A program made the translations under genes and the position numbers. A model generated the notes under the pieces. It searched no databases, had not been told where the DNA came from, and was given only the letters and a program-made list of their open reading frames with translations. From NCBI GenBank assembly GCA_024711025.1, contig JANJTP010000026.1, positions 1 through 36,293 of the forward strand: a DNA stretch of 36,293 nucleotides, written 5' to 3'. Shown here one piece after another: positions 4,979 to 23,607 of the stretch. How positions within the stretch are numbered: the stretch's first letter is position 1; each line of letters begins with the position of its first letter. Origin of the DNA: Solirubrobacteraceae bacterium (GTDB lineage Bacteria; Actinomycetota; Thermoleophilia; Solirubrobacterales; Solirubrobacteraceae).

Positions 4979-5521
4979 GTGCGCGAGCTGACGTATACCC
5001 AGCCCCAGACCTGGATCGCGATTCTGTTCGTGATCATCGTCCTGATCCTGGTCGCGGTCTTCGTGACGATCGGCCGCAGCGCTCGACGCGACGTCCCGTT
5101 CGACGAGGTCAAGCGGGTCGGCTACGGGATCAGGACGTGGTGGCTCGCGGCGTTCGGCACGCTTCTCACCATCGGCGTCGTCGCCTCGTTCTTCCTGCTG
5201 CCGTACTCGGGCGCCCGGGGAGCTACCGGCAAGGCCCAGCAGGTGAAGGTCAAGGGCGGCCAGTACTACTGGGCGCTCTCGCCGAAGACGGTGAGCGCGG
5301 GCCGCGTCAAGTTCTTCGTCACGGCGGTCGACGTCAACCACGGGTTCGGCATCTACAGCCCCAAGGGCGAGATGCTGGGCTCCGTCCAGGCGATGCCCGG
5401 CTACACGAACAAGCTCGACGTGCAGCTCGACGAGCCGGGCGACTACCTCATCTCGTGCCTCGAGCTCTGCGGGGTCGCCCACCACAAGATGCACGCGACC
5501 TTCAAGGTCACGAAGAGGTAG
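4979..5521 (+). CDS. heme-copper oxidoreductase subunit II with CuA site (CoxB/NorS-like)
   Basis: A 180-residue membrane protein that would receive electrons from cytochrome c and pass them to subunit I. Two transmembrane segments (about 13-31 and 54-75) precede an outward cupredoxin domain. The CuA ligands are complete: His121 (VNHGF) and Cys160, Glu162, Cys164, His168, Met171 in CLELCGVAHHKM. The protein is shorter than mitochondrial-type subunit II and resembles the small subunit II of B-family (ba3-like) enzymes. Start is GTG 4979 with AAAGAGG a few bases upstream. The subunit I start is 9 bases after the stop, so the two are translationally close, in the order seen in norS-norY and in ba3-type operons. 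Whether it serves an O2 or an NO reductase depends on the partner, which lacks the active-site Tyr. Confidence 0.9.
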   Translation: MRELTYTQPQTWIAILFVIIVLILVAVFVTIGRSARRDVPFDEVKRVGYGIRTWWLAAFGTLLTIGVVASFFLLPYSGARGATGKAQQVKVKGGQYYWALSPKTVSAGRVKFFVTAVDVNHGFGIYSPKGEMLGSVQAMPGYTNKLDVQLDEPGDYLISCLELCGVAHHKMHATFKVTKR

Positions 5522-5530
5522 GGATCGCAG

Positions 5531-7516
5531 ATGGAAGCCGCGACGATCGACATCGCCCACCCACGCTCGGCCGAGCTCGCGCCCACTCCGACGGTCGCCG
5601 AGAAGCGCGTCGGCTGGCTGATGGCCGGCACCGGCCTGGCGCTGTTCCTCCTGATGATGCTGCTCGGCATCACGATGCGCCTCTCGCAGGCCGACGTCGT
5701 GGGGATCTCCGACTCCTGGTACTACCGGCTGCTGACCCTGCACGGCGCGGGGATGCTGGTCGGTGCCCTGCTGGTGATGATGGGCGCGCTCTGGTTCGTG
5801 CTGCGGCCGATCGTCGAGCTGTCGGTCAAGCGGCTGCTCTGGGCGTACGGCTGCATCGTCGGCGGCGCCGTCCTCGTCCTCGTCGCCGCGATCGTCGGCG
5901 GCTTCGCGACCGGCTGGACCTTCCTCTCGCCGCTGCCGTTCTACTCGTCCGGCCAATGGGCGACGTGGGCGACCGCGACGTTCTTCGTCGGCATGGTGCT
6001 CGTCGGCGTCGGCTTCTTCCTCTACTGCATCGAGCTCTTCACGGCGACGACGAGCCGCTACGGCGGGATGTCGCGGGCGCTCGGGATCCCCTACCTGCTC
6101 GGTCGCACCGACGAGGCACCGCCGCCGCAGGTGCTCGCGGCCACCGTCGTCGCATTCGACGGCCTGGTCGCCAGCGCCGGCGGAACGACGATCCTGATCG
6201 CGCTGATCAACCGCACGATCGACGACGGCGTGCTGATCAACGCGCTCTGGGCGAAGAACCTGACGTACTTCTACGGCCACACGATCGCCAACCTGATCAT
6301 CTACCTCGCCGCCGGCGCGATCTACGTACTGGTGCCGCGCTACGCGGGTAGGCCGTGGAAGACGACGAAGCCGCTCGCCGCCGGCTGGCTGGCGACGCTG
6401 CTGTTCGTCCTGATCGCCTTCTCGCACCACCTGTACATGGACTTCGCCCAGCCGGGCTGGGCGCAGTACGTCTCGATGGGCGCCTCGTCCGCGGCGGCGA
6501 TCCCGGTCGCGGTCGTGACGATCTACACCGGGATGATGCTGATCTGGGGGTCGCGCTACCGCTGGACGCTCGCCTCGATGCTGTTCTACCTCGGGTTCCT
6601 GGGCTGGGCGCTCGGCGGCATCGGCGCCGTGCTCGACTCGCTGATCCCGGTCAACTTCAGCCTGCACAACACTCTCTGGGTGCCGGCGCACTTCCACACG
6701 TACCTGCTGACCGGGGTGATGTTCTGGGCCATGGCGTTCGTCGCGCACCTGGCCGAGCGTGCCGCCGGACGCCCGACCCCGCGCATAGCCTCGATCGCCG
6801 CGCCGGTCATGCTCGTCGTCGGCGGCTACATGTTCGTCGGCTCGTGGTACGCCGCGGGCGCCCTCGGCGTCCCGCGCCGATACGCGCTGCACCCGCCGGG
6901 CACGCAGGCATACGACGTGGTCGGATCGATCGGCGCGATCCTCGTGCTGCTCGGGTTCCTCGTCTTCGTGGGCGCGGTGCTGAAGCTCGTCGTCTCCGCG
7001 CGCACCCGCCCGGGTGAGGCGTCCGCGGCGCCGCGCGCCGCCGCCACGCCGCTCGCGCTGGTGCCGCCGGTGCGCACGAGCGCAGGGTTCGCCGCACTCG
7101 CGGGCCTCGCGACCGTCTGCGTCGTCTCGCTTCTGCCCGGTGCCGTCGACCTGGCAACGCGCTCGGCCGAGGCGCACCACCTCGACCACACCGCGCAGTT
7201 CCTGCTCGGCGGCCTGGTCGCCCTGGGCCTGGGCTCGAGGCGCGCCCTGCTCCGACCGATTCCGGCCGGGGGGACGTGGTGGGCGCTCGTGACGGTCGTT
7301 GCGGCGCCGGCCGTGATGCTGCTCGTCATGACGCCCGCGATCTACAAGCCACTTGAGGACCACGACCTCCTCCACCTGCTCTACCACTGGGGGATCATCG
7401 TGCTCGGCCTCGCCACCGGCTGGGCAAGCGTCCGCTTCGGACGAGTCTCGGGAATGGCGATCTTCGTTCTATCCGTGTCGATGGGCGCGGCATTCGCTGG
7501 AGGTGTCGGAGGTTGA
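5531..7516 (+). CDS. heme-copper oxidoreductase subunit I lacking the cross-linked Tyr (candidate NO reductase, NorY-like)
   Basis: A 661-residue polytopic membrane protein, the catalytic subunit. The low-spin haem ligands are His71 (TLHGAG) and His389; the high-spin haem ligand is His387 (VPAHFHT); the copper/non-haem metal ligands are His250 and His299-His300 (FSHHLYMD). In oxygen reductases of families A and B the first metal ligand sits in HPxVY, whose Tyr is covalently linked to the His and needed for O-O cleavage. Here the segment is GHTIAN: Asn254 takes the Tyr position and Pro is Thr. Loss of this Tyr is the hallmark of nitric oxide reductases that evolved from B-family oxidases. The last ~150 residues add several membrane segments and His-rich stretches (AEAHHLDH, HDLLHLLYHWG) beyond the usual B-family length. 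I call it an HCO with high confidence and an NO reductase as a testable inference. Confidence 0.9.
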   Translation: MEAATIDIAHPRSAELAPTPTVAEKRVGWLMAGTGLALFLLMMLLGITMRLSQADVVGISDSWYYRLLTLHGAGMLVGALLVMMGALWFVLRPIVELSVKRLLWAYGCIVGGAVLVLVAAIVGGFATGWTFLSPLPFYSSGQWATWATATFFVGMVLVGVGFFLYCIELFTATTSRYGGMSRALGIPYLLGRTDEAPPPQVLAATVVAFDGLVASAGGTTILIALINRTIDDGVLINALWAKNLTYFYGHTIANLIIYLAAGAIYVLVPRYAGRPWKTTKPLAAGWLATLLFVLIAFSHHLYMDFAQPGWAQYVSMGASSAAAIPVAVVTIYTGMMLIWGSRYRWTLASMLFYLGFLGWALGGIGAVLDSLIPVNFSLHNTLWVPAHFHTYLLTGVMFWAMAFVAHLAERAAGRPTPRIASIAAPVMLVVGGYMFVGSWYAAGALGVPRRYALHPPGTQAYDVVGSIGAILVLLGFLVFVGAVLKLVVSARTRPGEASAAPRAAATPLALVPPVRTSAGFAALAGLATVCVVSLLPGAVDLATRSAEAHHLDHTAQFLLGGLVALGLGSRRALLRPIPAGGTWWALVTVVAAPAVMLLVMTPAIYKPLEDHDLLHLLYHWGIIVLGLATGWASVRFGRVSGMAIFVLSVSMGAAFAGGVGG

Positions 7517-7523
7517 TGTTCAG

Positions 7524-8000
7524 ATGACGGAGGAACCTGTGGAGCCCAAGCAGGAGCTGGCGCCGCCGCCCGACGGCAAGCCCGGTGGCGCCGCGGCATG
7601 GATCTTCGGCGGTTGGATCGGCGCGTTGGTCGCGGTTCTGGTCGTCGCCGCCTGGCTCGTCGGCAAGGACGAGGGCAGGCGCCAGGCTGAGAACGCCGCG
7701 CCCACCCAGGTCGCCACCGCCCCGCCGGCCAAGACCACCGCCAAGCCCGAGCCGGCTGCCCCGGCCGGCCCCGGCAAGCAGCTCTTCGCCACGAAGTGCG
7801 GCAGCTGCCACACGCTGAAGGCGGCGGGGACCAACGGCGCGGTCGGCCCGAGCCTCGACGACCTCCAGCCCGATGCTGCCCTGGTCGAGGCGGCGATCCA
7901 GAACGGCGGCGCCGGATCTGGCGCCATGCCGAAGGGGCTCGCAGCCGGCAACGACGCCAAGCAGATCGCGGACTTCGTCGCGCAGGCGGCCGGCGGGTAG
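7524..8000 (+). CDS. membrane-anchored class I cytochrome c
   Basis: A 158-residue mono-haem cytochrome c. Residues 24-46 form one membrane anchor, 50-84 are an Ala/Pro-rich tether, and the haem domain carries C92-G-S-C95-H96 with Met135 (GAMPKG) as the likely sixth ligand. It should sit outside the membrane and deliver electrons to the CuA of the subunit II encoded upstream. ATG 7524 is used because it is the first in-frame start after the subunit I stop (TGA 7514-7516), with GGAGG 11 bases upstream. The gene ends the operon, followed by a strong terminator at 8029-8053. Confidence 0.9.
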   Translation: MTEEPVEPKQELAPPPDGKPGGAAAWIFGGWIGALVAVLVVAAWLVGKDEGRRQAENAAPTQVATAPPAKTTAKPEPAAPAGPGKQLFATKCGSCHTLKAAGTNGAVGPSLDDLQPDAALVEAAIQNGGAGSGAMPKGLAAGNDAKQIADFVAQAAGG

Positions 8001-9963: not shown

Positions 9964-10190
9964 CAGCCGACATTGTGACGCGCGCAGCGAAGCGCGAAAC
10001 CGCAACCCCCCGGACGGGGGTCCGGCGGGGTGGCTTTCGTAGGCTGGGAGACACCACCCCGCCCAGCGGCGACCACGCCGGCGAGCCCGTCGCGGCGAAC
10101 ATCCGTCGAGTCGCTGATCGCGGGCCGCCCCTCCGGGCCGATGATGCCGGTGGCGCCGCGTCGTCCGGCAACGCTCCGTCCACCGACCCG

Positions 10191-11429
10191 ATGCCCGAGC
10201 GGATCACCCACACAGCCGACTCACGCCGCACGCTCGCCGTCCTGCTGCTTGCCGCCGCGCTCGTCGTCGTCGTCCCGGTCCCACCGGCGCTCGCCGCGAC
10301 CTCGAGCGTCCGCGTCATGCGCGGGACACCCGGCGGCGACCGGATCAGCGTGCCGGCGGGACGCGTCGCCCAGGTGTTCGGCGACGGCGGCGCGGACCGG
10401 ATCGTCGGCGGCGCCGGGGCCGACGAGCTCCACGGCGAGGAGGGCCCGGACCGGATCGTCGGCCGCGGCGGCGACGACGCGATCACCGGCGGCTCCGGCG
10501 GCGACCGACTCCGGGGCGGTGCCGGCCACGACTCGCTCGACGGCGGATTCGGCCACGACTCGCTGAGCGGCGGCACGGGCGACGACCGGCTCGACGGCGG
10601 CGCGGCACCCGACCGGCTCGTCGGCGGTCCCGGCAACGACGTCATCCACGGCGGCAACGCGAGCGACGTCATCGACGGTGGCCCCGGGGACGACGAGATC
10701 TTCAGCGACAGCAGCGCCGACAGGATCGATGCCGGCGAGGGGGACGACGTCGTCCACGTCAACAACGGCACCGCGGTGCACTCGGTCGACTGCGGTCCGG
10801 GCGAAGACACGATCTACGTCAACCCGGTCGGCGAGCCGGCCGGGTACGCGAACCGAGCCGCCCTGCGCAGGGGCCTGATCCGGGGCTGCGAGCACGTGAT
10901 CGCCGAGTCGGCTCCGCCGCCGCCGCCGAACGCCGGGGTCAAGCGGATGGCAGGCGATCGCGGGCACACCCTTCACGGAACCGACCGCGACGACAACCTG
11001 CTGGGGGCTGCCGGCCCAGACATCGTCTGGGGCCGTGGCGGCGCCGACGTGATCTGGGGCAACTACCACCCGACCGGCCCGAGCCGCGGCCTCGACCGGC
11101 TGTTCGGCGGCGACGGGAACGACGAGATCTTCGGCAGCCGCGGCGCCAACCGCATCGACGGCGGCACAGGCGACGACCGGATCAACGGCGGCGAGCGCTC
11201 GAATCGAATCGACGGCGGCGAGGGCGACGACAGGATTCGTCTGCGCGGCCGGGGACCGAACACCGTGGACGGCGGTCCGGGGAACGACACGATCCTGGCC
11301 TACGGGAGCGGACGGGCGTTCGTGCGGTGCGGTCCGGGAGCCGACACGGTGATGATCGGCTTCAACCGGCTGATCCGCTGGTCGTCCGACTGCGAGAGCG
11401 TCAGCCACCGCTACACGACGCGCCGGTAG
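10191..11429 (+). CDS. secreted two-block RTX-like calcium-repeat protein
   Basis: About 412 residues. The N-terminus has Arg residues, a hydrophobic run [14 protein letters not shown] and an ALA-A cleavage site near residue 35, a Sec signal peptide, so ATG 10191 fits better than upstream starts. Two blocks of GGxGxDx-type nonapeptide repeats follow (about 54-205 and 263-385), joined by a Pro-rich linker (242-246). Such repeats wind into a parallel beta-roll binding Ca2+ between turns; the protein is probably extracellular. Each block ends with the same pattern, a CGPGxDT turn and then a second Cys in CExV (Cys201/Cys233 and Cys390/Cys401), which suggests a disulfide-closed cap. No enzyme domain is visible, so this is a structural or surface protein of unknown task. 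The coding DNA is itself internally repetitive. Confidence 0.8.
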
Positions 11430-21805: not shown

Positions 21806-22732
21806 TCACCGCGCCGCGCCGGTACGCTCGGGCAACTCGCCGGCCGCGATCCGCTCGCGCAGCTCGGCACCGCGCCCGGCGCCGACGGCTCGTGCGGCGC
21901 GGCGCTCGCTCAGCTCGATGCCGTGCGCCGCCGCGAGCTCGACGAGGTCCTGGCGCTCGTCGGTCTGACGGGCCGTACGCAAGAAGAGCCAGCACAGCAG
22001 GCCGAGCGTCAGCAGCGACCCCTCGACCATCATCACCGCCCCCGCGGCGACCTGATCGGCCGCCGGCGAGATGCCCCATGCCGCCTCGCCGGGTGCGTAG
22101 ACGCCGTAGAAGGCCCCGCCGCCGAACAGCAAGGCGTTGCCGAGCACGGCCGCGGTGAGCCGAACGGCCACGACGTAACCGAGGATCGCGGCGTTCCCGA
22201 ACCACGACGGCTTCGGCAGGGGCCCGAGCAGCGCCAGCCACATGTTCAGGCCGAGCGCGATGAAGAGCACGTGCTGGAGCGCGTGCACGGCGTCGTCGCG
22301 CACGGCCTGCTCGTGAAGCCCCGCCACGTGCCAGGCATAGAGGTTCACCGCCCAGAGCACGTAGGCCACTACGGGATGGACGAGGATCCGCAGCACGCTC
22401 ATCCCGGGAAGGCGCAGCAGCGGGGCCAGCAGGGGTCCGGTGATCCCGAGCGCGAAGAGCAGCGCCGCCAGGTCGCCGAGCAGCAGGTGCTCGCCCATAT
22501 GCGCCCAGAAGAGCTCGTCGGCGAGCGCCGCGACGGGCGATGCCAGGGCGACGACCACCAGGGCGACGCCGACGACGAAGCAGGCGATGCGCCAGTGCGG
22601 GACGGCCCGCGGACCGCCGCGCAGCCGGGCGACGCCCATCAGGTACAGCGCGAGCCAGGCGCCCGCCACGACGAGCGCGAGCGCGACCTCGCCCACCGCC
22701 GGCCAGACGACCTCTCCCGTAGCGAGGGCCAC
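21806..22732 (-). CDS. CtaG-family cytochrome c oxidase assembly protein (caa3_CtaG type)
   Basis: About 300 residues with seven membrane helices. Conserved His/Trp features are WAHMGEHLLLGDLAALL, NLYAWHVAGLHEQAV, HALQHVLFIALGLNMW and WLALLGPLPKPSWFGN, the pattern of Bacillus CtaG and its actinobacterial relatives, needed for CuA/CuB maturation of caa3-type oxidase. It could serve the heme-copper enzyme at 4979 although it is 14 kb away. The start is uncertain: GTG 22732 and GTG 22696 are in frame; neither has a strong ribosome site. It follows the nucleotidyltransferase gene on the same strand by ~90 bases and may be read from the same transcript. The charged C-terminal tail (~60 residues) is unusual. 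Confidence 0.85.
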   Translation of the reverse strand: MALATGEVVWPAVGEVALALVVAGAWLALYLMGVARLRGGPRAVPHWRIACFVVGVALVVVALASPVAALADELFWAHMGEHLLLGDLAALLFALGITGPLLAPLLRLPGMSVLRILVHPVVAYVLWAVNLYAWHVAGLHEQAVRDDAVHALQHVLFIALGLNMWLALLGPLPKPSWFGNAAILGYVVAVRLTAAVLGNALLFGGGAFYGVYAPGEAAWGISPAADQVAAGAVMMVEGSLLTLGLLCWLFLRTARQTDERQDLVELAAAHGIELSERRAARAVGAGRGAELRERIAAGELPERTGAAR

Positions 22733-22821
22733 CGTGGCAGCGTACGCCGCGACGACGGAGCCCGCCTCGCCTCCGAGCGGGGAGCGATCACCCGCCCCGC
22801 CGGCCGACGGGGCGCCGGGGT

Positions 22822-23607
22822 CTAGCGGTCGACCTCCTCCGGCTCCTCGTACCAGCGCTTGCGCTCGCCGATCTTCGCGCGCAGCTTCCAGCGCCGGCTC
22901 TTCGGTGCGCGCTCCATCGCGTCGGCGATCGCGTCGATCCGCCCGGCGATCGTGCTGCGCTCCCCCGCGTCGAGCCCCGACTGCTCCTCGAGCCCGGCTC
23001 GCAGCCGCTCGAGGTTGAGCTCGAACGTGTGCTGCAGGCCCCAGTCGCCTGCGGTCAGCTCGGCGATCCGCTCGACGTTGATCGCGTCGTCGTCGCCCCC
23101 CGTGTCGCAGGCCAGGAGGAGCGCGTAGAGGTCGCCGCGGTCCTTCGCGTTCAGCGAGATGATCTGCAGCTTGGTCATGACCAGCTCCGCCGGCGCCAGC
23201 GTGTGCGGCACCGCCTGCAGACGCTCGGCGAGCGGCAGCTCGTGGCACATCTCGAAGGTCTCGACGAAGACGTCGACCTGGCGGTCGCGCCCGGGCTCGG
23301 GGTCGTTGAACAGCATCCGTCGGTGGCCGTTGAGCGCGTTGAACTGCTCGTCGGCGACGTAGCCGGCCTCTGCCAACAGGTCGGCCGTGGCCCGGCGGTC
23401 CTGCTTGGCGACGACGAAGTCGAGATCGGCCGGCGTGCGCTCGAACGTCGGGTGCAGCCGGGCGCCGATCAGCATCCGGATCGCCGCGCCGCCCATCAGG
23501 CGCAGCGTCAAGCCGCGCCGCTCCGCCTCCTCCGTGATCCGGTGGGCCTCCTCGTCGATGTCGGCCCTCGGCTTGCCGAGCTCGTTCCCCATCGCGACGG
23601 TCATCAT
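22822..23607 (-). CDS. nucleotidyltransferase-fold protein (MNT/AbiEii-like)
   Basis: A 261-residue protein with the minimal nucleotidyltransferase signature: LMGGAAIRML (Gly39-Gly40), then TPADLDFVV with Asp61 and Asp63, and a third acid Asp112 in RQVDVFVETFEM, so the metal triad is intact. The second half is helical with LIxRLxELTA-like repeats and a basic C-terminal tail (KSRRWKLRAKIGERKRWYEE). Relatives include AbiEii/AbiGii toxins, tRNA-modifying NTases and many unknowns; there is no antitoxin-like gene beside it. ATG 23607 overlaps the metallophosphoesterase stop as ATGA, so these two are coupled. Function in a guanidino-compound operon is unexplained. Confidence 0.72.
   Translation of the reverse strand: MMTVAMGNELGKPRADIDEEAHRITEEAERRGLTLRLMGGAAIRMLIGARLHPTFERTPADLDFVVAKQDRRATADLLAEAGYVADEQFNALNGHRRMLFNDPEPGRDRQVDVFVETFEMCHELPLAERLQAVPHTLAPAELVMTKLQIISLNAKDRGDLYALLLACDTGGDDDAINVERIAELTAGDWGLQHTFELNLERLRAGLEEQSGLDAGERSTIAGRIDAIADAMERAPKSRRWKLRAKIGERKRWYEEPEEVDR

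Follow-up and report, generated by a model that had tools for sequence, protein, structure and literature searches.

The window analysed here, positions 1–36,293 of contig JANJTP010000026.1 of a soil-type actinobacterium (Solirubrobacteraceae bacterium, assembly GCA_024711025.1), carries three co-directional genes on its forward strand (4979–8000), encoding a CuA subunit II, a haem-copper subunit I and a cytochrome c. The probable product of the operon is a haem-copper enzyme fed by cytochrome c, a candidate nitric oxide (NO) reductase of the sNOR (NorSY, type II CuA-NOR) group that would convert NO to nitrous oxide (N2O). An earlier note on this DNA had proposed an sNOR-like NO reductase, and the proposal is supported, at the level of sequence, by a clade that carries Asn throughout in place of the active-site Tyr, contains a gene of Ruegeria pomeroyi and has Tyr-bearing B-family proteins as its sister group, together with the sNOR layout of the subunits. 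What is new is the Thermoleophilia branch, in which a CtaG-like domain is fused to the catalytic subunit and no SCO gene lies alongside.

Active site and subunit organization

Subunit II (NorS/CoxB-like; 4979–5521, GTG start; Pfam COX2, E=3e-7) consists of two N-terminal transmembrane helices (residues 6–37 and 54–79) followed by a cupredoxin domain with a complete CuA site. The NHGF motif (residue 120; 5336–5347) provides the first ligand, a His, and the motif CLELCGVAHHKM (residues 160–171; 5456–5491) provides the Cys, Glu, Cys, His and Met ligands. Subunit I (NorY/CoxA-like; 5531–7516; Pfam COX1, E=1e-55) has 661 residues, arranged as a 12-helix haem-copper core and a fused C-terminal domain; its AlphaFold model has a predicted local distance difference test score (pLDDT) of 86.4 and a predicted template-modelling score (pTM) of 0.91. 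The third gene (7524–8000, with the ATG at 7524 as the best start) encodes a membrane-anchored mono-haem cytochrome c (PF13442, E=3e-7; transmembrane helix at residues 21–50; CGSCH at 7797–7811), which is the likely electron donor to CuA.

All the metal ligands of the haem-copper core are retained. His71 on helix II (5741–5743) is a ligand of the low-spin haem, His250 a ligand of CuB, His299 and His300 on helix VII (6425–6430) are the other CuB ligands, and His387-Phe-His389 on helix X (6689–6697) supplies the ligands of the high-spin and low-spin haems. His250 lies in the stretch HTIANLIIY (6278–6304), in which the slot of the cross-linked Tyr is occupied by Asn254 (motif GHTIAN; codon at 6290–6292). 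Across 47 aligned sequences, neither the six histidines nor Asn254 varies. The positions and residues given in the earlier note, including its complete CuA site and the cytochrome c gene that follows, all proved correct when the open reading frames and translations were checked.

Relatives of subunit I were drawn from Actinomycetota and from 84,980 named genomes, the latter yielding 249 relatives of which 80 were kept. In a joint alignment read through profile searches, position 254 is Asn in every one of the 99 clade members, whereas the 36 A- and B-family sequences all have Tyr. Five residues, Asn254, Tyr258, Ala366, Asp369 and Tyr391, are present in 99/99 members of the Asn clade and absent from the compared oxidases. 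Asn254 would face the metal, since it lies four residues after His250, exactly at the position of the oxidase Tyr. In the model, helix VI is continuous from residue 238 to 272, with Tyr258 one helical turn beyond Asn254, so that His250, Asn254 and Tyr258 are predicted to share roughly one face of the helix. Subunit I has neither the His-Tyr cross-link Tyr on helix VI that marks B-family O2 reductases nor the one on helix VII that marks the C-family (cbb3). A compensating Tyr as in cbb3 was looked for at helix VII position 293, which holds Val, Thr, Ile or Leu (residues 291–294 aligned with Ruegeria CcoN).

The earlier note took the loss of the Tyr with retention of the His ligands as the signature of an NO reductase. 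This was right in kind; the signature, however, had already been published, Asn being the listed active-site residue of sNOR and of CuANOR/bNOR (PMC8756737 Table A4; PMC3475470), and is hence not new for these groups. That the operon encodes a decayed, non-functional oxidase, as the lost Tyr might suggest, can practically be dismissed: the other ligands, CuA, haem c and the gene order are kept across many phyla, and the Asn itself is invariant.

In the proposed mechanism, the membrane-anchored cytochrome c would hand electrons to the CuA site of subunit II, from which they would move to the low-spin haem and on to the high-spin haem and CuB (or FeB), the latter being held by His250, His299 and His300 of subunit I. 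With Asn254 in place of the cross-linked Tyr, the residue from which O–O cleavage draws an electron and a proton, the site would be suited to the two-electron reaction of 2 NO to N2O and not to the four-electron reduction of O2. In the cell, the enzyme would probably serve to remove or respire NO that arises during nitrate reduction.

Phylogenetic placement of subunit I

In a maximum-likelihood tree, built without reference sequences of bNOR, nNOR, gNOR and eNOR and without the Nitrosomonas and Geobacillus sNOR, the Asn-bearing proteins form a clade with support 100/100. Its sister group consists of B-family proteins of the same class that bear the Tyr and, among solved structures, are most closely related to ba3 oxidases; the A-family lies outside. 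The earlier note had considered that the protein might group within the O2-reducing ba3/B-family enzymes and carry a compensating Tyr; it is placed instead in the sister, all-Asn clade, and the cbb3 slot holds no Tyr. The nearest relative of the window subunit I, at 78% identity, comes from another Solirubrobacteraceae metagenome-assembled genome (MAG; locus L044), and the two form a pair (100/100) inside a Thermoleophilia clade of equal support (100/100).

The Asn clade also includes a gene of Ruegeria pomeroyi DSS-3 (WP_011241963), found in a plasmid search, which is 38% identical and has its Asn in the motif GHVFIN. The operon there consists of subunit II, subunit I, SCO, orf1, a formate/nitrite transporter (FNT) and cytochrome c, and adjoins an Rrf2 regulator. 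Ruegeria pomeroyi was formerly placed in Silicibacter. Silicibacter is among the listed sNOR organisms (PMC8756737 Table A4), and the layout in ammonia oxidisers is norSY-senC-orf1 (PMC4940428). Membership of eNOR or gNOR was rejected from the Tyr slot, which holds Asn as against Gln (eNOR) or Asp (gNOR) (PMC8756737). Matches on Haloarcula and Halobaculum plasmids, considered as possible eNOR references, turned out to be ordinary A-family oxidases.

Three further observations concern the relatives. A record labelled Burkholderiales (L052) has its subunit I in the Thermoleophilia clade and the same fused domain as G752, a genome of the window's class (L146); it is probably a mislabelled MAG. 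In several proteobacterial relatives (L101, L104, L113, L115, L118 and L123) the open frame of the CuA subunit II also contains a haem c motif, CxxCH. In the nearest relative, the first cytochrome c gene is followed in tandem by another (L044, 8444–8920).

The C-terminal domain fused to subunit I

The fused C-terminal membrane region that the earlier note had pointed out (about residues 495–661) is real and conserved among relatives; it proved to be a CtaG-like domain, encoded in other phyla by a gene of its own. From the model helices, the homologous separate open reading frames and the profile match to Caa3_CtaG, it can be delimited to residues 496–661 (7016–7513), with about five helices. 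The relatives show two operon layouts. Those of the first group, proteobacterial and acidobacterial, mostly have SCO downstream of subunit I; those of the second and larger group (97/93) have no SCO there, and the gene after subunit I encodes a small membrane protein showing the pattern HHxxH … MxPxxY … HxxxH. The CtaG-like, SenC-free part of the clade spans Thermoleophilia, Planctomycetota, Verrucomicrobiota, Eremiobacterota, Methylomirabilota, Bacillota and Deinococcota. The small membrane protein has its own gene in Bacillota, Methylomirabilota, Opitutaceae and others, and is fused to a cytochrome c in Planctomycetota and many Eremiobacterota. Its fusion to subunit I is seen only in Thermoleophilia, in the window and some 15 relatives; the fused gene there is usually followed by a separate one for cytochrome c. 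The C-terminal region is thus this same protein, elsewhere separate, joined to the catalytic subunit.

An alignment of 37 copies of the domain has nine invariant columns, five of them histidines. In the window these include His549, His550 and His553 of the HHLDH motif (7175–7189), and Met600, Pro602, Tyr605, His615 and His619 in the stretch MTPAIY…LLHLLYH (7328–7387). Six of the 37 copies match PF09678 (Caa3_CtaG) weakly, a Bacillota copy reaching 22.7 bits against a cut-off of 27.7, and the window copy gives no match to PF09678. Comparison of the domain profile with an alignment of 30 CtaG proteins (hhalign) gives 95.4% with E=5.8e-9, as against at most 0.7% for the controls (reversed CtaG, the subunit I core, FNT, DedA and Ruegeria orf1); a single-sequence comparison with CtaG is weak (7%), the relationship becoming clear only with the CtaG alignment. 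A Foldseek search of the fused domain alone against the PDB returned no match at E<=0.001. Since the profile comparison with CtaG is strong and the controls are low, we conclude that the region is best described as a divergent CtaG-like domain. Ruegeria orf1 was considered as a counterpart, the third membrane protein of sNOR (orf1/cbaC2) having 4–5 helices and the window a fused domain of five; profile comparison detected no homology between the two.

Pfam names CtaG as a cytochrome caa3 assembly factor, and by analogy a role in assembly or metal loading of the site is a first guess for the fused domain; it would most likely act in this way, or else as a permanent third subunit. A bolder reading, which we regard as unlikely, concerns the part of the Asn clade that has the CtaG-like domain, lacks SenC and in most cases has a cytochrome c. 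These enzymes would make up an NO reductase type of their own, in which a CtaG-derived protein is a permanent subunit, its five invariant histidines bind a metal or haem, and an Asn254–Tyr258 pair replaces the Tyr chemistry. The fusion is a natural single-polypeptide pairing of a catalytic subunit with a putative assembly partner, which makes both the substrate of sNOR and the role of CtaG testable.

The window also encodes a regular CtaG (PF09678, 167 bits) at 21806–23248 on the reverse strand, about 14 kb from the operon; a second CtaG of the genome lies on contig C71.

Genomic setting and relation to known enzymes

Among 319 sampled genomes of the class, 12 carry a window-type subunit I, 51 carry narG and 9 carry both. 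This respiratory nitrate reductase gene is thus found in 9/12 carriers and 42/307 non-carriers (Fisher p=5e-6, in a test that ignores relatedness, the carriers coming from four family-level groups). Five carriers were examined for other denitrification genes. None has nosZ, matches being confined to cupredoxin domains. All five have NirK-like multicopper proteins (L131 at G000:C24:30391–31173, L130 and L132–L134), which fall below the NCBIfam NirK cut-off; these keep the copper ligands and Asp98, and the catalytic His255 is replaced (FHVVGxxFD, judged by eye). A NO-detoxifying scavenger, with the same chemistry, little energy conservation and NO supplied by other soil organisms or by chemical reactions, would fit both the want of a convincing nirK or nosZ in these carriers and the patchy distribution, 12 genomes in 319. 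We consider this a possible if doubtful alternative to a respiratory enzyme, as the narG enrichment and the dedicated cytochrome c/CuA chain point to a respiratory link.

Several points weigh against assignment of the operon as an sNOR-type NO reductase. To our knowledge, no sNOR has so far been purified and assayed. The narG association carries no correction for phylogeny, and NirK is a doubtful internal source of NO, the five carriers offering only sub-cut-off homologues without His255. One carrier (G478) has a qNOR-like gene as well (L168). SenC/SCO is not beside the operon in the window or its Thermoleophilia relatives, though present in Ruegeria and the proteobacterial relatives; it is treated here as a usual companion gene of sNOR and not as a defining part. 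Finally, a high-affinity oxidase role has been argued for the sNOR of Nitrosomonas europaea, which is induced by O2 limitation (PMC6967387). By the same token the window enzyme might be a high-affinity O2 reductase without the Tyr, the radical or proton being supplied for instance by Tyr258 or Tyr391, residues that the Asn clade keeps without exception and that oxidases lack. This we consider unlikely, though a rival to be taken seriously: the cross-linked Tyr is retained throughout the known O2-reducing families (PMC8756737 Table A4), the enzyme co-occurs with narG, and bNOR, in which the same Asn occurs, has been proven to reduce NO, its genes having been matched to the purified enzyme of Bacillus azotoformans (PMC3475470). 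The window genome (97% complete) moreover already has A-family-like oxidase genes on contigs C19 and C67, and its PF00115 matches include no other NOR-like haem-copper gene. Reduction of NO remains the favoured function, and if sNOR-like enzymes do reduce NO, many possible N2O producers are hidden by annotation as cytochrome c oxidase, in Actinomycetota, Planctomycetota, Eremiobacterota and others.

The genes around the operon have no obvious respiratory link: from their translations, a zinc alcohol dehydrogenase lies upstream and a TDT-type transporter and PanD lie downstream, all on the opposite strand. The operon thus seems to stand on its own. Further along (9975–11429, forward strand), a protein whose RTX-type calcium-binding repeats are rich in glycine and aspartate is probably secreted. 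A separate observation in Solirubrobacterales is a conserved A-family-like subunit I homologue without most of the haem and CuB ligands (L161 1501–2835 and L051 6886–8400, both reverse strand; L160, L167, L204 and L206–L211). About 28 genomes, from family-level group f2 and close relatives, carry it at 40–76% identity, twice within a few kb of an sNOR operon. The helix II His is changed to Tyr, GHPEVY to FTGxYM, HH to QN and AHFH to AATHF, and the protein is apparently a non-catalytic member of the haem-copper fold.

Of the known systems, the window enzyme is most like sNOR (NorSY, type II qCuANOR), described from Silicibacter/Ruegeria, Geobacillus, Deinococcus and ammonia oxidisers. Both have Asn for Tyr, the six histidines, a CuA subunit II, a 12-helix subunit I and a cytochrome c as the likely donor, and the window protein shares the clade of the Ruegeria pomeroyi gene; the two-helix N-terminus of subunit II and the 12-helix subunit I are those of a type II CuA-NOR (PMC3475470). 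It differs from sNOR in having no adjacent SenC/SCO, in the CtaG-like domain fused to subunit I and in its Thermoleophilia branch. The bNOR (CuANOR, type I qCuANOR) of Bacillus azotoformans likewise combines Asn for Tyr with CuA (PMC8756737, PMC3475470), and assignment to bNOR or nNOR in place of sNOR was therefore weighed. It is quite improbable: subunit I of bNOR has 13 helices and its subunit II one, and there is a small subunit of 46 residues (PMC3475470), whereas the window has 12 core helices and two helices, respectively, and the Silicibacter/Ruegeria sNOR gene falls within its clade. The B-family (ba3-type) oxygen reductases, such as those of Thermus thermophilus and of the same class (L038–L043), form the sister clade at about 28–34% identity; they keep the Tyr of the HPxVY motif and lack the five residues specific to the Asn clade. 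The fused domain, in turn, has the H..H, PxxY and HxxxH pattern of Caa3_CtaG (PF09678) and matches it at 95% by profile; in contrast to Caa3_CtaG it is shorter (about 165 against about 240 residues), falls below the Pfam cut-off and is encoded within the enzyme itself.
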